Assembly: GCF_009695545.1 (NCBI RefSeq)
Contig: NZ_VUNS01000020.1
Coordinates: forward strand, 1 to 64,000
Length of the DNA stretch: 64,000 nucleotides
Origin: Victivallis lenta
Lineage (GTDB): Bacteria > Verrucomicrobiota > Lentisphaeria > Victivallales > Victivallaceae
Direction of reading: 5' to 3'
Within the stretch, counting starts at the first letter, position 1; each line of letters starts with the position of its first letter. The notes beneath the pieces were generated by a model. It was not told where the DNA came from. It saw only the letters and a program-made list of their open reading frames with translations, and made no database searches. This document shows, piece by piece, positions 1-9,884 of this stretch. The position numbers and the translations under genes are program-made.

Positions 1-471
1 GTCGATGAATAACGAAAGTTGACGGAAGCCGAGACAAAAATCAGAACAGAAAACGCCGGAAAATCCGGCAAAAAACAACGTTTGAATCCGCATGAAAAAC
101 ACATGGACAAAATTTCACGGATTCAGGAAATATTTTTCGACCAACTCAAGGCGACAGAGAGCCATATTCGGATTTCCCTGTATAGCTGACACATTCCAAA
201 TTCTTCCCCTATGGTATTTCTGAATTTCGTTCATTTTGAAATGATGGATCAAATCAGCCGATTTCTGTGAAATCTGTCCATTTTTTGGAACTCGCCCAAA
301 CTCTGTCTTTTCCTCCCCTTAAACTCGCCATTTTGAAACCATTTTATATTATTATCGATAATTATATAAACACTCTAAAAACACTAACAAAATTATCTAT
401 ATTTAGACTTGAATTATTTGGTCCATCATCTATCTTAAGCTATTGTAATACCAATACTTTAAGAGGTAAAA
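1..471. other. AT-rich island edge without a confident gene
   Basis: I see no convincing coding region here. A short frame from a TTG near 19 to a stop at 187-189 is basic and polar, lacks a ribosome site and could be a remnant. A reading frame beginning near 267 overlaps the amidoligase start and has no ribosome site. The stretch holds a small GCCGG/CCGGC hairpin near 54-69 and the palindrome at 343-370, and it serves as the upstream region of the amidoligase operon. Confidence 0.5.
343..370. repeat. Palindrome A, candidate recombinase or operator site
   Basis: A 28-base near-perfect palindrome is centred on ATCGAT (centre between 356 and 357), with 14-base arms and one internal mismatch. 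Its left 18 bases (342-359) recur exactly at 3030-3047. A weaker copy is visible around 391-405, about 41 bases downstream. The site lies upstream of the amidoligase, and its partner lies just past the serine recombinase. It could be a recombinase crossover site, or an operator for a shared regulator. Confidence 0.6.
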
Positions 472-1365
472 ATGGACAAAATTGCAGAGCTCTCAGGAAT
501 GAGGTTTGGGGTTGAGATTGAAACTATCGGAATCAGCAGAAAAGACACCGTTTCAGCCATTCTGACAGTGGTTGGCGGCGAGATTGGACATGAAGGCGGC
601 AGCTATGATAAATGGCACTGCATCGCTCTTGACGGTCGTAAATGGAATGCTGTTTCCGATGCTTCGATTGGTCGTGGGAATGCGGAAATTGTCAGTCCGA
701 TATTGACTTATCCTGACGACATTTCAGCTCTGCAGAATGTTATTCGGGCGATTCGAAAAAATGGAGGAAAAGTTAATTCGAGCTGTGGAATTCACGTTCA
801 TGTGGATGCCTCTTGCTTGAATGGGCGGCAATTGGGGAACCTCGCTAAAATCGTTTATAAGCAAGAGCCGTTGATTCTGCATGCACTCCAAATTTCTGAG
901 GCTCGTTTGAACTCATATACAAAGCCGATGGAACCGTCATTTATTGAGAATGTTGATAAATATCGTCCTCATTCAATTGGGCAACTTGGTAAGCTGTGGT
1001 ATAAGGATAATGACGACCACCATACAGAACACTACCATAGCTCTCGATACCACGGCGTGAACTTTCATTCTCTCTTTTATAGAGGAACAGTGGAGTTTCG
1101 TTGGTTTGAAAGCACTCTCCATGCGGGAAAGGTAAAAAGCTATATTCAATATTGCCTCCTGCTTGTCAACCGTGCAAGAGAAGTGAAATTCGCCGCCTCG
1201 AAGAAGCGCTGCCTCTCCATGGAATCGGCAAAATATGACATGAGGGTTCACCTCCTGAGAATCGGAGCCATTGGCGACGAATTCAAGACTATGAGAAAAT
1301 TCTTGCTTGAGAATATGCCTGGCTGTGCCAGCTACAAGCATAAACCTGAGCAAAAGGTGGCATAA
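472..1365 (+). CDS. Amidoligase (glutamine synthetase-fold COOH-NH2 ligase)
   Basis: The 297-residue protein shows the hallmarks of the putative amidoligase family (Pfam Amidoligase_2). These are FGVEIE at 12-17, VSDASI near 61-66, AEIVSP at 71-76, CGIHVHVD at 105-112 and RGTVEFRWF at 204-212. In this family the Glu, His and Arg positions are thought to bind metal and ATP in a glutamine synthetase-like fold and to form amide or peptide bonds using an amine or ammonia. ATG 472 follows an AAGAGG ribosome site. The next gene, a glutamine amidotransferase, begins two bases after the stop, so ammonia could be supplied in trans. Base composition is much richer in A+T than the chromosome beyond 9.9 kb, which fits horizontal transfer. 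The substrate is unknown. The family assignment is strong; the role is inferred from published genome-context work on such pairs. Confidence 0.85.
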   Translation: MDKIAELSGMRFGVEIETIGISRKDTVSAILTVVGGEIGHEGGSYDKWHCIALDGRKWNAVSDASIGRGNAEIVSPILTYPDDISALQNVIRAIRKNGGKVNSSCGIHVHVDASCLNGRQLGNLAKIVYKQEPLILHALQISEARLNSYTKPMEPSFIENVDKYRPHSIGQLGKLWYKDNDDHHTEHYHSSRYHGVNFHSLFYRGTVEFRWFESTLHAGKVKSYIQYCLLLVNRAREVKFAASKKRCLSMESAKYDMRVHLLRIGAIGDEFKTMRKFLLENMPGCASYKHKPEQKVA

Positions 1366-1367
1366 CA

Positions 1368-2129
1368 ATGTGCGGTCAATGCGGAATCATTTTGGGTAAG
1401 AAGCGTCGAACTCGGAAAGAACTGGAGGCTCTCGGCAATATGTTCACTTCGCTCCTTCAATATAATGAGCGTCGTGGTCGTGATGCCACAGGCATTTATA
1501 TTGCAGATAAAAACGGAATCGGAAAAATTCTGAAAGCTCCTATTTCTGCGATACACCTGACGGAATCATCGAAATATCAGGAGGCGATTCGGAGTATCAA
1601 CAATAAAACTGTGACTTTGATTGGACATACTCGCTGGAAAACGGTTGGAACGCCTATGGTGAATGGGAACAATCATCCGATTGCTACTGAGCGTTGTGTC
1701 GGCACTCATAATGGAACCATCATGAATCATAATGATCTTTTCCATGAGTTCGGTTGGCAGAGGACAGGACAGGTCGATTCTGAGGCAATTTTTCGGTGTG
1801 CTGATGATTGCATTGATAAACGGGGAAGACTCGATATGGGGGAATTTTCGGAAAAGCTGAAAAAATTTCTTGGAACCATGTCTTTCATTCTTCACAATCG
1901 TCAAGAGCCCACCATGGTCTACATTGGAATCGGCAATATGCCGCTCAGCCTTCGGTATAACTCAAAACTTCGCTGCTTGTGTTACTCGTCCGAACTGATG
2001 CCTCTGGTGATGGCGGGGAAAGGATATAGAGGATGGCATCTCCAAACACAATCGCCTATGACACTTTTTCGTTTTGACATCGCTGATTTAATGAGGAGGG
2101 ATTCTGTCCCAATGATTTTCAATTTATAA
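1368..2129 (+). CDS. Class II glutamine amidotransferase
   Basis: The 253-residue protein begins MCGQCG, which exposes the Ntn-type nucleophile Cys2 after methionine removal. It also carries HTRW (87-90), HNGTI (114-118) with the oxyanion-hole Asn-Gly, and VDSEA (136-140), all typical of the class II (PurF/GlmS/AsnB-type) glutaminase domain. No synthetase or isomerase domain follows, so this is a stand-alone glutaminase domain that presumably releases ammonia from glutamine. It starts two bases after the amidoligase stop, with an AAGGTGG ribosome site inside the end of that gene, so the two are almost certainly co-translated. Its ammonia most likely feeds the amidoligase. Length and motifs look intact. 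Confidence 0.88.
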   Translation: MCGQCGIILGKKRRTRKELEALGNMFTSLLQYNERRGRDATGIYIADKNGIGKILKAPISAIHLTESSKYQEAIRSINNKTVTLIGHTRWKTVGTPMVNGNNHPIATERCVGTHNGTIMNHNDLFHEFGWQRTGQVDSEAIFRCADDCIDKRGRLDMGEFSEKLKKFLGTMSFILHNRQEPTMVYIGIGNMPLSLRYNSKLRCLCYSSELMPLVMAGKGYRGWHLQTQSPMTLFRFDIADLMRRDSVPMIFNL

Positions 2130-2271
2130 CGTAGAATTCGAACACAAATTTTTTAAAAAGAGGTGTTCCAAAACGTTTCTGAAAATCGATGATTTTTTGA
2201 GCTCAAAATAGCCCCCAATATTTACTGTTTCAAAACGACCGTTTCGGAATGACGGCAAGGAGAAGCAAAAA

Positions 2272-2853
2272 ATGCGTTGTGTTATTTATAGTCGAGTATC
2301 AACCGAAGAACAGAGTACAGATAACCAGCTTCGGCAACTTCGGGAATATGCGGATCGGCAAGGTTGGAATGTTGTTGAAGAAATTCGAGACATCGCCTCT
2401 GGAGGAAAATCCGCAGAAGAACGCCAAGGACTCAAGAAAGTTTTTATCATGGCAAGGCAACGGAAATTCGATGTTTTGTTATTTTGGTCGTTGGATCGTT
2501 TCTCCAGAGAGGGATCAAGAAAGACACTCGAATATTTGACTCGACTCGATAGTTATCACACGAAGTGGCATTCCTATACCGAAGAATACATTTCTTCGTT
2601 GGGGATTTTCTCTGATGCCATTATTTCATTAATGGCATGTTTGGCAAAACAGGAACGCATTCGGATTTCAGAAAGAACCAAGGCTGGATTGGCAAGGGTG
2701 AAGGCTAAGGGCAAAGTTCTTGGTCGCCCTACTGACGTGATTGCCGACACCGAACAGATCAGAGAACTTCGCCAGAGTGGATATTCTTTATCAGAAATTT
2801 CACAAATCACCGGGGTATCAAAAACTCGTGTTCATAGGCTTCTCTCCGCTTGA
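2272..2853 (+). CDS. Small serine recombinase (resolvase/invertase family)
   Basis: The 193-residue protein has the resolvase N-terminal domain. It begins MRCVIYSRVST, with the expected nucleophile Ser10 and Arg8, followed by a LDRFSR segment and an extended E helix (ERIRISERTKAGL). The C-terminal 45 residues contain a GRPT linker and a helix-turn-helix (SLSEISQITGVSKTRVHRLL), as in Tn3/Gin resolvases. It acts on short paired dyad sites as a dimer or tetramer. ATG 2272 has an AAGGAGA ribosome site. It lies downstream of the amidoligase pair, and matching palindromes flank the three genes. Whether it is a resolvase, an invertase or a cassette excision enzyme cannot be told from sequence. Confidence 0.9.
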   Translation: MRCVIYSRVSTEEQSTDNQLRQLREYADRQGWNVVEEIRDIASGGKSAEERQGLKKVFIMARQRKFDVLLFWSLDRFSREGSRKTLEYLTRLDSYHTKWHSYTEEYISSLGIFSDAIISLMACLAKQERIRISERTKAGLARVKAKGKVLGRPTDVIADTEQIRELRQSGYSLSEISQITGVSKTRVHRLLSA

Positions 2854-2900
2854 ATCCGTTTTGAGAAATTGTTCAAAACAAAACGAATCCATTCCCCCCC

Positions 2901-2978
2901 AAAAGTGTCTTTCTTCGACTTTCATCTCCAGAACCTTCTGATCAAGAAATCTGCAGATTGCCGAGAAAAGACACTTTT
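2901..2978. repeat. Inverted repeat downstream of the recombinase
   Basis: AAAAGTGTCTTT at 2901-2912 is complemented by AAAGACACTTTT at 2967-2978, with about 54 bases between the arms. The same 12-mer occurs again near 3372-3383 inside the lipoprotein gene. The arms could form a cruciform or a weak transcript end for the recombinase. No classical T-tract accompanies a short loop. Confidence 0.45.
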
Positions 2979-3028
2979 CCCTATTACCGATTTCACTTCA
3001 CTTCCATTTCTTTCTGAGCTCAGAAAGG

Positions 3029-3093
3029 TTTTTATATTATTATCGATTATAATATAAGAACTTGAAGAGAAATCATTATCGAAAATAATATAC
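3029..3093. repeat. Palindromes B and C, candidate two-subsite recombination region
   Basis: Palindrome B (3031-3058, centre 3044/3045) shares 18 consecutive bases with palindrome A. Its arms pair with two mismatches in 14. Palindrome C (about 3068-3093, centre 3080/3081) is a degenerate copy whose right half, after TTATCGA, resembles the consensus. The centres are 36 bases apart, a geometry compatible with subsites of a serine recombinase. The repeats also lie between the recombinase and the convergent lipoprotein gene. Confidence 0.55.
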
Positions 3094-3097
3094 GAGA

Positions 3098-3961
3098 TCA
3101 GTTGATCCGCTCCGTTGTCCAATGATTGATCAGAACGGAGTCAGAGTTGGGGATCTGATAGTTGAATTCCTTCTGCTGAAACACTCCTGCTTTATCAAGG
3201 AAAGACACTTTCACCATCCTGTCATTGATCGAAAGTCCTTGAATGGTGATTTTTCTACCAACGAGGTAATTGGCAATATTTCCCCCATTCTTCCAGATGG
3301 ATAAGTTGCTTTCCGTTCCCATGCCGAAGCTGGATATTACGCCATAATTTGTCGGTTCAATAATTCCAATATGAAAAGTGTCTTTCCCAATCACCATCTT
3401 CCGACAAAATGGGATATTAAGTTGAGCGATGGTTTCAGTTTTCAGCATTCCATCCCGCCATTTATCCTCAGGTATTCTGAAGTCCAGTTCGCCGTGTCGC
3501 AAAGAAATACTTTTCTCCTGAAAGTGAACAGGCGCATTCCGCATGGCAATGAATGCTTGCCGTACCTCCTCAGGAACGGTCAGTTCCGTAAACCGATTTT
3601 TCAAGCGTTTTCCCTCACGTCCATACCGAAGCATCGGAGCAATCGAACCTTCTCCCATGGATTCGGAATTGCGGCGATCCATCAGGCGTTGCCATTCGGC
3701 TTGGTCTATGAGCAGTTTGATCCGTTCAGATTGGGAAAGTTTGGAGAGTTTATGGTCAAGGGCGGCTGCCACCTGCTCCTCGGCAAGCGCAACCAGCCCT
3801 CCTACGTTTCCGGTCATTTCAAGTTGCGTGATAACTTGCTCCTGTTCCGCTATAACCCTTTTCCCCAATTCCAAAGATGGAACCGGGGTACACCCAAGCA
3901 GGGTACACTGCAGGAAAATAGAACAAGCATTTATTACAAACTTTTGACGCAATTCTCCCAT
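3098..3961 (-). CDS. Putative lipoprotein of unknown function
   Basis: This 287-residue protein has an N-terminal hydrophobic stretch ending in a lipobox-like LLGC, so it is probably exported and lipid-anchored. It has a predicted coiled or helical segment rich in E, Q and K (roughly residues 30-110), then a more structured C-terminal half. I recognise no family. ATG 3961 overlaps the stop of the upstream zinc-ribbon/MORN gene (TGATG), which implies translational coupling, so the two may act together at the membrane. A GTG one codon upstream is an alternative start. The gene is AT-rich like the rest of the island. Confidence 0.7.
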   Translation of the reverse strand: MGELRQKFVINACSIFLQCTLLGCTPVPSLELGKRVIAEQEQVITQLEMTGNVGGLVALAEEQVAAALDHKLSKLSQSERIKLLIDQAEWQRLMDRRNSESMGEGSIAPMLRYGREGKRLKNRFTELTVPEEVRQAFIAMRNAPVHFQEKSISLRHGELDFRIPEDKWRDGMLKTETIAQLNIPFCRKMVIGKDTFHIGIIEPTNYGVISSFGMGTESNLSIWKNGGNIANYLVGRKITIQGLSINDRMVKVSFLDKAGVFQQKEFNYQIPNSDSVLINHWTTERIN

Positions 3962-4785
3962 CACTTTCTTCTGCCGTCAGAATGATACTTCACAACATTT
4001 CGAGGTATGTCGTTATAATAAGTCGCAGTAGTCTCCGGTTGTCCATTTTCATAGTAAGAAATGTACTCACCATTTAACTTACCATTTTCATAATTTTTTT
4101 TGGCTTTGATCTGCCCACTTTTGTAATATTCAATGAGTTCACCTTCTTTCCAAAGTCGCAGGTATGGAGTATATTTATATTTTTCCAGCAATTCACCTGT
4201 TGGATAGTAAGAAATCGCCTCACCATAGCCACTCGCACCACCATGCACTTGATACTCTAAGCGCTTGGCTCCATTATCATAGTATTGAATTCCTTTTTGA
4301 TCTTTTCCGTCTTTGTAGTAGGCGATGCTGACAATCTGACCACTGGCAGCATACGAAATATACGGACCATTCAGCTTACCATTTTTATACTCGAACTTGA
4401 TTTTTTCTCCATTTGCAAAAGAGTCGGTTGCATAACCGGAGTATGGAGTCTGAGAATTTGCCTCGTAAGTTATTCCATCTCTCTCGACCAACGTATCCCG
4501 ATGAACGCTCCTTTTTCCGAATATACCCCAGCAAATGAATCCTATTCCTGTGATAATCACAAGCAAAACTGGAATCGCAGTCCACAGAATTCTTTTATTG
4601 CGTAATAAGTTTTTCTTCGATAGAGGAAGGGAGGAAGCAATCGTGGACGAAAGTGGAATAGGTTCGGTTTGTTTGGAGATTGTGATTTGGACAGAACAAC
4701 TTGGGCACGTGGTTTCCAAACCGTCCCATTCGTCCTCGGCTTCTAATTTGGCATTGCATGCGGGACACCTGAAATGAAATGACAT
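3961..4785 (-). CDS. Membrane protein with zinc ribbon and MORN-type (YwqK-like) repeats
   Basis: The start is set at ATG 4785 because it has a clear AGGAGAG ribosome site; longer frames run into a terminator. The first 30 residues hold CPAC and CPSC knuckles (CX2C-X17-CX2C), a likely zinc ribbon. One transmembrane helix follows (ILWTAIPVLLVIITGIGFI). The C-terminal two thirds repeat a GKLNGxYxSYYxxGQ pattern, the MORN_2/YwqK-antitoxin-type repeat seen in many bacterial surface and toxin-associated proteins. The repeats probably face the periplasm. Its stop overlaps the start of a lipoprotein gene. The biochemical role is unknown. Confidence 0.75.
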   Translation of the reverse strand: MSFHFRCPACNAKLEAEDEWDGLETTCPSCSVQITISKQTEPIPLSSTIASSLPLSKKNLLRNKRILWTAIPVLLVIITGIGFICWGIFGKRSVHRDTLVERDGITYEANSQTPYSGYATDSFANGEKIKFEYKNGKLNGPYISYAASGQIVSIAYYKDGKDQKGIQYYDNGAKRLEYQVHGGASGYGEAISYYPTGELLEKYKYTPYLRLWKEGELIEYYKSGQIKAKKNYENGKLNGEYISYYENGQPETTATYYNDIPRNVVKYHSDGRRK

Positions 4786-5911: not shown

Positions 5912-6076
5912 TTATTTTCCCTCCGTTAAAATTTTTTCAATAAGGTTCTCTTCGTAATAGACTCGTTTCCCGATTCTGATTCTGTTCAATTTCCAGCGGC
6001 TGAGGGTACGTGCCGAAATATTGAGGAACTGTGCCACTTCCTGAGTGGTCAATAAATTACCATTTTTATTTTTCAT
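5912..6076 (-). CDS. Excisionase-like helix-turn-helix protein
   Basis: This 54-residue protein contains LLTTQEVAQFLNISARTLSRW, a winged HTH_17/MerR-type motif of excisionases and small DNA-binding regulators, followed by a basic wing (RIRIGKRVYY). ATG 6076 is preferred over a start at 6217 because a GGAGA site lies just upstream and the motif begins immediately. It is transcribed divergently from the primase-helicase. It may regulate the divergent promoters or act as a recombination directionality factor. Confidence 0.8.
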   Translation of the reverse strand: MKNKNGNLLTTQEVAQFLNISARTLSRWKLNRIRIGKRVYYEENLIEKILTEGK

Positions 6077-6438
6077 TGTATTTTTTCTCCTTACAGCGTT
6101 CATCGCTGCCATCAATGGAAAAATATAAAAAAATATGAAAATCGGAACTTTCTGCCGGATTTTCCGACAGGAATATTTTTTCGAGAAACTTCCCCGAAAG
6201 CTGGTTTCATGCTTCAAGAAAATTCAGATGGAGGGTGAAGCCATGGGAACAACTTCCTTGCGGATGCTTTATATATAAGTAAAATAGCACTCTGCCTACT
6301 TTCTGCAGATGGGTGAAAAAAATCCTCAATGTTAACATTTTTTTATAATCATCTATTTATGTCATTGAATGACAGACAGGGATACTGGCAGTCCGAACAA
6401 CCCTGTTTTTCACTTCGGATATTAAGGATGAATATGTG
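6077..6438. promoter_or_regulatory. Divergent promoter region between HTH gene and primase-helicase
   Basis: This 362-base gap contains no convincing gene. A TATAAT at 6344-6349 could serve the primase-helicase, and a TATATA-rich element near 6270-6280 could serve the minus-strand HTH operon. AT tracts near 6120-6170 are compatible with an unwinding or regulatory region. Confidence 0.4.
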
Positions 6439-9072
6439 ATGATTACAAATACCAAGGATTTTATGACGCTCTTGGGCTTCCAAGAGAATGATCTTGTCAG
6501 TTGGGGAGCCTCAGCTCCTGACTGGCGTTTCCATAGGAGCATCGCCACGGCTGGGGAGCTCTGGCAGACGAATGAGTCGGCAGAAGCTGACAACTATAAT
6601 ATGTATTACTCGATTTCGAGTTTCAAGGGCAGAGGGAAAGCAACCGAGGATCAGGTGGACAAGGTATTCGAGCTTGTATTGGATATTGACTATGGGGCTC
6701 ACCATAAACGTGCCGAATTCGAAAATCGTGATCATGCGTGGCAATACATCAAGGAACATTTTCCCAAGCCGACCATAATCGTTCATACAGGCGGAGGTTT
6801 CCAGCTCCACTATAAACTCTCGACTCCACTTTCAGGGGATGCCAATAAAAGGCACTTCAAAATGCTTGTGGCGGCAATAGCCCGCCACTATCGAGTGGAT
6901 TTCTGTTTTTCATTGGAGCATTTGTTCCGTTTGCCGTTCTCACGCAACATCAAGTCGGGAGCCGAAATCAGAGAGGTATCCATCTTGGAAGTGAACCCGG
7001 AAATATCATATACACTTGAGGAAATTCAGGACAAGTTCCTTCCGTCCGATTTTTCATTGGAAGAACCGACATCCCATGCCGTCGAAAAAAGCAGAATCGC
7101 TTCCATTAAAAAGGATACGCAGTCATTATTTGACCGTAGCGCCGTTGCGTTTCAGCTTCTCATCAGATGTTTGAAGTTCATACCGGATGTTTCCGATAAA
7201 GTGCTCGAAACCGCAATCGTCAATGATCCGGTGTTGTTCGATCACTATCATCAAAAGCGCCGCTTGGTCAGAATGGACATCCAGAGAGCTCGAAACAAGG
7301 TAATGGAAGAATCCATAGAATGTGTCCTTCCTGTCGAGAAATTCCATCTCAGCAACCCGGATTTGAGTTTGTATGACAAGGTCAGGAATAAGTTCGATCA
7401 GCAGTTCTTCAATACCCGTTCTCCTAAAATCGATATCACGTTATCCATTCTTGACCAGTGCAATAAACAGGAAAAACAGGCGCTTCTCAGCTTGCCTTGC
7501 AGCAGCGGGAAAAGTACAGCCGCTTTGTTATTTATCGCCGCTCATGCTTCGGCGAATCGTCGCTTCTGGTTGGTGTCGGAAAAGATCGTCGATTGCAAGC
7601 GCAATGCCGATGCGTTGAGAAAGTTGAACTGTAATGCACTCGCATTTCATGGACGTGACGGGGAATGCTGCAAGGTTGATGAGCAGGTTTTCCGTCATCA
7701 GAATAAGAAGCGCATCTGTTCCGAATGTCCCAATCCATGCGGAGCGGAATTGAAGTATTGTGCCGATGAATACCGTTTGGATTTGCCCTCAGCGGATGTC
7801 GTTTGCTGTACGCATGCACACTATAAGCATGCGTTGGCAAACGGGCAATTTTCGCCCAATATTCATATGGTCATCATTGATGAAAGTCCTGAATTGCTTG
7901 AAAATTTCTCGTTTCAGCAAAAAGACCTCAGCATTTTGTATAAACACTTGGCTGATTATCCTCCCGTCCTTGAATTGGAGGCTGATATGGTGGCAATCGA
8001 ACAGCTCTTATCCGATCACTCCTGTCGCCGTATCAAGCCGTTGAACTATGATTTTTCTGAAATATCCCGTTACCTCTTTATGCAATTCCATCGCAAGGCA
8101 ATAGCCATGGAGGAGTTCGAGTTCGCATTGGAATTCTGTCAGTTCTTCGGAAAAAATAAGAATATTTTCGGAATAGCTAAGGATCAGCATTATGAATTCA
8201 TCGCAGGGACAGTGAAACTTGAAACTTCCGTCCAAACTATCATTTTGGATGGATCAGCCAAACTTCAAAGCACAAAATGGAAAGGCTTTTCCATCATAGA
8301 ATGCGACCAGTTGAAAACCGCTTATCCGAATACGCATATCCACTGTATTCTCGACAATCCTACCAAGAATAAGTTGTCGAACAAGAAGGTCTTCCAAAAA
8401 ATTATTGACGCAACCGACGAGCTTCTTACTCAATCCGATATGAATACCATACTTTTTGCCAACAAGAACTTGAGTTCAGAACCCATATTAGCCAGGGCGA
8501 TTGACCGCCTCAAACAAACCATCATCAGTAAGAATGGCAACATCATTCCGTTACCTCGTGGACAACATGTCGGCAGTAACGCAGGGAGAACAGCTCAATT
8601 TTCCGTGATTGCGATGAGTTTGTTCCGTACCGTTTCAGCCTATGCTCTCCAAACGGCAATCTGCCGTGATGAGGAAATCGACGCTGGCAGAATCTGGGGA
8701 GAAACGGTTTTCAATGGAAAGAAAGTGCTCATTCCCAAGTTTTGCCGTGACGGTTCTTTTGCGGATAAGATGATCAATCAGCAATACCTCAAAACTCTTG
8801 AGCGTGATCTATACCAAGCCATCATGCGTGGCTGTATCAGAGAGCATTCCGATGCCGAATATCACGTGATCGCTTTGGTCAACATTCCTCAGTTAGTCAA
8901 TTTATTGAAACTTGATCTACCGAAATGTCATATTCATTTTCTCGAAAACGAAGTGCTCAATCTCTATTTTCAAGGATACTCCGAAGCCGAAATTGCCCAA
9001 AAAACCGGAATTGCCAAAAGAACGGTCAGGGATCAGATCCTTAAAGTATCCGAATATTGCCGCTTGGACTGA
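6439..9072 (+). CDS. Primase-helicase replication protein (AEP primase plus DinG/XPD-like helicase)
   Basis: The 877-residue protein (ATG 6439 after AAGGATG; a GTG one codon earlier is possible) combines three parts. Residues are numbered from that GTG, so subtract one for the ATG form. The first 200 residues resemble an archaeo-eukaryotic primase: LDID at 82-85 as the metal-binding DxD, HTGGGFQLHY at 117-126, and RLPFSRNIKSG near 165-175. The middle is a superfamily 2 helicase with Walker A PCSSGKST (354-361) and DESP as motif II (482-485). Between them lies a cysteine group (411, 412, 428, 431, 435, 442), placed like the 4Fe-4S cluster of DinG/XPD helicases. The last 35 residues form an HTH (EIAQKTGIAKRTVRDQIL). 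It probably initiates replication of the mobile element. The domain calls are from motifs only; the Fe-S cluster is an inference. Confidence 0.8.
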   Translation: MITNTKDFMTLLGFQENDLVSWGASAPDWRFHRSIATAGELWQTNESAEADNYNMYYSISSFKGRGKATEDQVDKVFELVLDIDYGAHHKRAEFENRDHAWQYIKEHFPKPTIIVHTGGGFQLHYKLSTPLSGDANKRHFKMLVAAIARHYRVDFCFSLEHLFRLPFSRNIKSGAEIREVSILEVNPEISYTLEEIQDKFLPSDFSLEEPTSHAVEKSRIASIKKDTQSLFDRSAVAFQLLIRCLKFIPDVSDKVLETAIVNDPVLFDHYHQKRRLVRMDIQRARNKVMEESIECVLPVEKFHLSNPDLSLYDKVRNKFDQQFFNTRSPKIDITLSILDQCNKQEKQALLSLPCSSGKSTAALLFIAAHASANRRFWLVSEKIVDCKRNADALRKLNCNALAFHGRDGECCKVDEQVFRHQNKKRICSECPNPCGAELKYCADEYRLDLPSADVVCCTHAHYKHALANGQFSPNIHMVIIDESPELLENFSFQQKDLSILYKHLADYPPVLELEADMVAIEQLLSDHSCRRIKPLNYDFSEISRYLFMQFHRKAIAMEEFEFALEFCQFFGKNKNIFGIAKDQHYEFIAGTVKLETSVQTIILDGSAKLQSTKWKGFSIIECDQLKTAYPNTHIHCILDNPTKNKLSNKKVFQKIIDATDELLTQSDMNTILFANKNLSSEPILARAIDRLKQTIISKNGNIIPLPRGQHVGSNAGRTAQFSVIAMSLFRTVSAYALQTAICRDEEIDAGRIWGETVFNGKKVLIPKFCRDGSFADKMINQQYLKTLERDLYQAIMRGCIREHSDAEYHVIALVNIPQLVNLLKLDLPKCHIHFLENEVLNLYFQGYSEAEIAQKTGIAKRTVRDQILKVSEYCRLD

Positions 9073-9791: not shown

Positions 9792-9807
9792 ATTTTGAGC
9801 TTAAAAA

Positions 9808-9884
9808 TGGTACACCCGACGAGATTCGAACTCATGACCTTCTACTCCGGAGGCAGACGCTCTATCCAGCTGAGCTACGGGTGC
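9808..9884 (-). tRNA. tRNA-Arg(CCG)
   Basis: The 77-base cloverleaf has a GCACCCG/CGGGTGT acceptor (a G1-U72 wobble), D arm GCTC-AGCTGGATA-GAGC, anticodon stem TCTGC/GTAGA with loop CTCCGGA (anticodon CCG), T arm TGAG-TTCGAAT-CTCG and an encoded CCA at 9810-9808. Its 3' end faces the AT-rich island, which marks it as the likely integration target. Confidence 0.93.

Follow-up and report, generated by a model that had tools for sequence, protein, structure and literature searches.

A Victivallis amidoligase, amidotransferase and recombinase gene set as a probable module of a tRNA-inserted element with a candidate 86-bp recombination site

Integrative elements and genomic islands that target tRNA genes insert at the tRNA 3' end, are bounded by direct attachment (att) repeats and carry an integrase at one end, together with an excisionase-like HTH protein, a replication-type gene and defence-type cargo. 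All of these features recur among the elements described here, which differ from described tRNA-targeting elements in their Victivallis host and in their combination of amidoligase/amidotransferase cargo with a small serine recombinase. For the recombinase, the closest described relatives in kind are (i) resolvases of the Sin/beta type, that is, proteins of ~190 aa with a catalytic serine and a C-terminal HTH that act at an adjacent site (86 bp in the case of Sin, whose site II is arranged head-to-tail; PMC2428073) and (ii) Mpi of Bacteroides fragilis, a small serine recombinase that inverts DNA. For the cargo, pairs of an amidoligase and a glutamine amidotransferase (PF12224 near PF13522) have been described on mobile DNA in LUZ24-like, OM43 and gut phages (PMC3890496, PMC10580990), and both cell-wall modification and superinfection exclusion have been suggested as their roles (PMC10580990).

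Here the start of contig C20 (NZ_VUNS01000020.1) of a 5.5-Mb Victivallis genome is analysed; the whole stretch of 64,000 nucleotides is termed the window, and its features are collected in Table 1. A first-pass annotation of this DNA had proposed that an amidoligase, its probable ammonia donor and a serine recombinase form a mobile module of ~2.7 kb bounded by palindromes that the recombinase uses. The families are confirmed (PF12224, PF13522 and PF00239), as are two flanking palindromes that share 18 identical bases in the same orientation; three things were overlooked, namely an inverted half-site (P3), two further copies of the gene set and a repeat at the contig start. As for mobility, the genes do lie on mobile DNA, as att repeats and an integrase indicate; the 2.7-kb boundaries are unsupported, homology between copies crossing both palindromes. 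The joint reading that we consider probable, judging from sequence, is that of a tRNA-Arg-inserted element in which the amidoligase pair is cargo, the recombinase acts at an 86-bp site of its own, and the palindromes are not its substrate.

Table 1. Features of the window and further copies of the gene set
Feature	Position	Strand	Evidence and remarks
Repeat end, IS-like	1..127	.	identical 127 bp open contigs C9, C13 and C54
Palindrome P1	342..370	.	overlaps promoter-like -35/-10 pair (333-362), upstream of amidoligase
Amidoligase, Amidoligase_2 family	472..1365	+	PF12224, 1.8e-59
Class-II glutamine amidotransferase, probable ammonia donor	1368..2129	+	GATase_6 PF13522, 3.4e-14; N-terminal Cys2
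Res-like site	2165..2250	-	86 bp (11+64+11), directly upstream of recombinase
Small serine recombinase, resolvase/invertase class	2272..2853	+	Resolvase PF00239, 1.2e-29; catalytic motifs present
Long stem AAAAGTGTCTTT...AAAGACACTTTT	2901..2978	+	3' of recombinase; possible terminator or RNA element
Palindrome P2	3030..3059	.	in longest invariant run of the three copies, 3029-3066
Half-site P3	3078..3093	-	inverted relative to P2; directly after 3' end of LprI-like gene
LprI-like protein	3098..3964	-	weak family match; in element in all three copies
Small HTH_17/excisionase-like protein	5912..6115	-	PF12728, 1.4e-06; excisionase domain sub-threshold
Large replication-type protein	6436..9072	+	primase/helicase-like motifs, no confident family
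Attachment repeat (tRNA-Arg 3' end), element end	9803..9860	-	tRNA-Arg 9808-9884
Further copies of three-gene set	C1 296.8-299.2 kb; C15 4.2-6.7 kb

Boundaries and copies of the element

The amidoligase, amidotransferase and recombinase set occurs three times in the genome (C20, C1 and C15). The three copies are homologous past both palindromes, by ~200 bp on the left side and across the LprI-like gene on the right, and C15 and V. vadensis DSM 14823 (the relative used here, from the same genus) also agree across P1; the palindromes therefore are not the ends of the shared DNA. Those ends appear to lie elsewhere. A 58-bp copy of the tRNA-Arg 3' end, 96.6% identical, is found at C8:185675-185732 and is followed directly by a tyrosine integrase (PF00589, 6e-24), and C8 ends in DNA homologous to the C1 sequence that adjoins, on its left side, the point matching C20:128. 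Homology between C20 and C1 begins at that same position, next to a repeat that ends at 127 and is common to four contigs (C20, C9, C13 and C54), which suggests that an IS-like repeat was inserted near the element's left end. We infer that the window element comprises 3.1 kb (C8), the IS and 9.7 kb (C20:128-9860), or ~12.8 kb plus IS, C8 and C20 being separate contigs joined across the IS. The three genes would thus form a module inside a tRNA-Arg integrative element.

The same layout, with a tRNA 3'-end direct repeat at both boundaries, is seen in related elements. The C1 element follows the 3' end of a tRNA-Thr (L014:6102-6177) and has its 61-bp repeat 18.3 kb away (L080:8470-8530), with a PF00589 tyrosine integrase inside; V. 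vadensis has the layout at tRNA-Asn, with a 53-bp repeat and an integrase; and the window element has its ends on separate contigs. Each integrase (PF00589 in L080, L082 and L166) is located between the att repeats, close to one end of its element, and this tyrosine integrase of the element itself would drive integration and excision at the tRNA 3' end. A search for an empty site within the genus found none, the relatives' flanks being too diverged or on separate contigs; an Rfam search returned the tRNA only; and a non-systematic reading of stretches of these elements revealed no conjugation or capsid genes.

A homologue of the replication-type protein, 38% identical, occurs at L176, where an integrase, the recombinase and this large protein stand together without the amidoligase; an AlphaFold model of the 878-aa protein was unusable (pLDDT 33). 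In V. vadensis (L082:7977-8966) amidoligase residues 1-229 are fused in frame to the C-terminal end of the replication-type protein; the fusion is the remnant of an internal deletion in the element, and P1 is kept. Degenerate or separate amidoligase copies also occur in the Victivallis genome: on C53 (L048:482-900) the left end of the element and its amidoligase survive in decayed form; on C45 (L017:1-900) the amidoligase breaks off after ~43 residues and continues in frame into transposase-like sequence at the contig end; and C30 (L016, C30:1-20000) has a lone amidoligase without amidotransferase, on a contig that also carries a large serine recombinase, relaxase-like genes and a radical-SAM protein, putatively of the RlmN/Cfr family.

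The serine recombinase and its res-like site

The recombinase (193 aa) matches gamma-delta resolvase (4e-15), contains RVS and DRxSR motifs and ends in a C-terminal HTH. Among 294 genomes searched, nine others encode homologues that are 50-72% identical, and in those nine neither the amidoligase nor the palindromes adjoin the recombinase gene. Directly upstream of the gene in the window, inverted half-sites of the form GTTCnAAAACG, namely GTTCCAAAACG (2165-2175) and CGTTTCGGAAT (2240-2250), flank a 64-bp core (2176-2239). The recombinase-proximal end carries a crossover-like full dyad (site I); of the second subsite a single half-site, in inverted orientation to site I, is recognisable. The pattern of this site has two matches genome-wide (control, 0), one upstream of the recombinase gene in C15 and the other in C20, oppositely oriented relative to the gene; the C1 site is more diverged, as is the C-terminal HTH of the C1 recombinase (54% identity). 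No scattered copies of the site were found elsewhere in the genome. Beside the gene, 10 of 15 recombinase homologues have such a pair of half-sites around a core of 62-65 bp, mostly 64 bp to within ~1 bp (shuffle p <= 0.013 each), that is, a multi-subsite site of fixed geometry as expected of a resolvase, and most of these site-bearing homologues lack both amidoligase and palindromes; the remaining five have no recognisable res-like site. The association claimed between palindromes and recombinase is thus unsupported on two counts, the related enzymes lacking the palindromes and the recombinase probably having a site of its own: most likely, on this pattern, the recombinase would act at 2165-2250 rather than at the palindromes.

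What it might do there is suggested by comparing the copies. Between C20 and C15 the core matches in inverted alignment (z 7.2, with 46 of 66 columns identical; z 2.6 in direct alignment), whereas the flanks of the core align direct (z 7.6 and 6.5); this inversion is seen between homologous copies rather than inside one population. Gene histories also switch across the site interval: C15 combines a G136-like amidotransferase (87%) with a C20-like recombinase (93%), where G136 is the sole other locus with the complete three-gene set. The mosaic extends further, the amidoligases of C1 and C15 being 96% identical and the C15 amidotransferase 87% identical to that of G136 versus 51% to that of C20. 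Occasional recombination at 2165-2250 could account both for the inverted core and for the exchange of neighbouring modules.

An inverted core between unchanged flanks would also be expected of a DNA invertase of the Mpi kind, in which case 2165-2250 would be a switchable inverton that controls the recombinase or the operon. Mpi is the best NCBIfam match of the protein, and half-site GGTGTTCCAAAA, which resembles the PSA repeat, also occurs in a primer for the invertible PSA promoter of B. fragilis (PMC10939037). Yet the match scores 65 bits against a family cut-off of 272; unlike Mpi, the Victivallis enzyme has a local site only; the core is ~64 bp in every homologue that has the site, as in a res synapse; one subsite alone is a full dyad; and the core contains no clear promoter directed at the recombinase. 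Moreover, the central dinucleotides of the two subsites mismatch within every single copy, which makes present-day inversion of the core doubtful. A switchable inverton is accordingly unlikely, though a rival to be taken seriously, and a resolvase is favoured over an invertase because the core length is fixed and the subsites are unequal. At this putative Sin-like res site, which at 86 bp is as long as Sin res, the recombinase would most likely resolve element multimers or co-integrates. The likeness to Sin is nevertheless incomplete: the second subsite here is a half-site turned towards the first in inverted orientation, whereas Sin site II is head-to-tail (PMC2428073), and recombinase homologues differ in which way the site points relative to the gene.

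The ATCGAT-centred palindromes

The 18-mer TTTTATATTATTATCGAT is identical, on the same strand, at 342-359 and 3030-3047. The ATCGAT hexamer was rejected as a signal in itself, its count in the window being at chance level (30 versus 32 expected). The 16-mer core TTATATTATTATCGAT, by contrast with that hexamer, has five exact matches in the genome, all at the three-gene set (two in C20, two in C1 and one in C15, where the left copy has decayed), and P1 is present in V. vadensis and G136 as well. In keeping with the first-pass annotation, which had named genome-wide operators as a contrary outcome, the palindromes are nearly confined to these loci, and their reading as such operators is rejected. 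Other candidates were also set aside: the few 15-mer matches in other relatives (G060, G081 and G116) are not copies of this palindrome and have neither amidoligase nor recombinase adjoining; the inner bases appear to mismatch the dif consensus of a Xer/dif-like module; and a genome search with a strict 23-mer dyad was too rigid and returned noise.

That P1 and P2 are crossover sites of the recombinase, so that the three genes excise or move together as a 2.7-kb cassette, is suggested by several features: the 18-mer brackets exactly these genes in C20 and C1, and C15 and G136 each have a single site that matches; a dyad of 26-28 bp has the geometry of a crossover site; and sequence similarity between C15 and G136 breaks abruptly at the right edge of P2, so that P2 may have some role in rearrangement. 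Against this, homology between copies runs through P1 and P2, the palindromes are missing beside related recombinases, the recombinase family has a separate res-like site, V. vadensis retains P1 without the recombinase or P2, and no empty site for such a cassette was found. Because the genes belong to a larger tRNA element and the recombinase likely uses its own site, the excisable cassette is unsupported, and we regard it as most improbable.

The stretch from P2 to P3 (3029-3121) is nonetheless the most conserved non-coding sequence between the copies and therefore probably functional. In C1 it is nearly identical to C20 and C15, although both the HTH of the C1 recombinase and the C1 res-like site have diverged, which suggests that another protein reads P2. 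The palindromes are probably regulatory or structural sites of the element, bound perhaps by an element-specific protein and distinct from the recombinase substrate. A narrower version, limited to the palindromes and consistent with the main explanation, is that P1, P2 and P3 bind an element-encoded regulator (e.g., the HTH_17/excisionase-like protein) that controls the amidoligase operon and its neighbours. This is a tentative reading, to which we give somewhat less than an even chance: the motif is confined to these elements, P1 overlaps the promoter-like pair (a consensus match only), and the P2 site of G136 precedes the HTH_17 gene by ~90 bp; in the Victivallis copies, however, P2 and P3 lie between convergent gene ends, not at a promoter, and V. 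vadensis has P1 but lacks the HTH gene.

The G136 block that runs from the HTH_17 gene to the LprI-like gene is inverted compared with the Victivallis copies, with a weak P3-like site (3 mismatches in 15) still 3' of the LprI-like gene. It is very unlikely that the three palindromes mark borders between modules, with cargo blocks shuffled or inverted there by a system that the element encodes, and no mechanism is built on the inverted block because it is a single case. G136 also has a different ATCGAT-centred dyad, GAGAGTTGC..GCAACTCTC (L181:11289-11324), ahead of its LprI-like gene. A separate feature is the long stem between the recombinase gene and P2 (fold z -4.05), which is kept in four loci while its loop diverges. 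Four copies of the 11-mer AAAGTGTCTTT fall into a stretch of 500 bp (2902-3385), versus 0.02 expected in the whole window, and two of them form a stem with a significant fold.

Cargo and significance

Class-II glutamine amidotransferases need a Met-Cys-Gly start, which the amidotransferase here has. The layout that defines the amidoligase pair, PF12224 followed by PF13522 with an N-terminal Cys, is thus present, and its chemistry, as follows from family membership, would be ATP-dependent amide formation fed by glutamine-derived ammonia. Amidoligase and amidotransferase are neighbours at 35 other loci in several phyla; 33 of these have no serine recombinase match nearby, and in the other two the only such matches are weak ones to distant serine recombinases. 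The first-pass annotation had named pairs kept without the palindromes as evidence against its cassette, and these 33 loci are in part what it described. Relatives of the amidoligase occur in 93 phage records; the best phage matches are only 38-43% identical, and the pair described here, unlike the phage pairs, is on an integrative element.

The amidoligase and its ammonia donor are probably cargo, with a predicted target that is a cell-surface component or a small molecule. Sister elements carry defence-like cargo, namely an AbiL-like AAA/RloB pair (C1, L080:6409-8270) and a PDC-S73 homologue (V. vadensis, L082:5575-7470). A scan of the amidoligase pair against anti-phage families gave no match; a role in defence against phages or competitors is plausible by analogy, because the cargo beside it in sister elements resembles defence systems.

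The element is ordinary in kind, being inserted at a tRNA gene and carrying cargo, and amidoligase/amidotransferase pairs are frequent on mobile DNA, phages included; the candidate recombination site is of moderate interest. The idea of a 2.7-kb cassette gives way to a delimited family of tRNA-inserted Victivallis elements with amidoligase and defence-type cargo, and the recombinase is tied to a specific, easily testable 86-bp candidate site, the core of which is found in both orientations.
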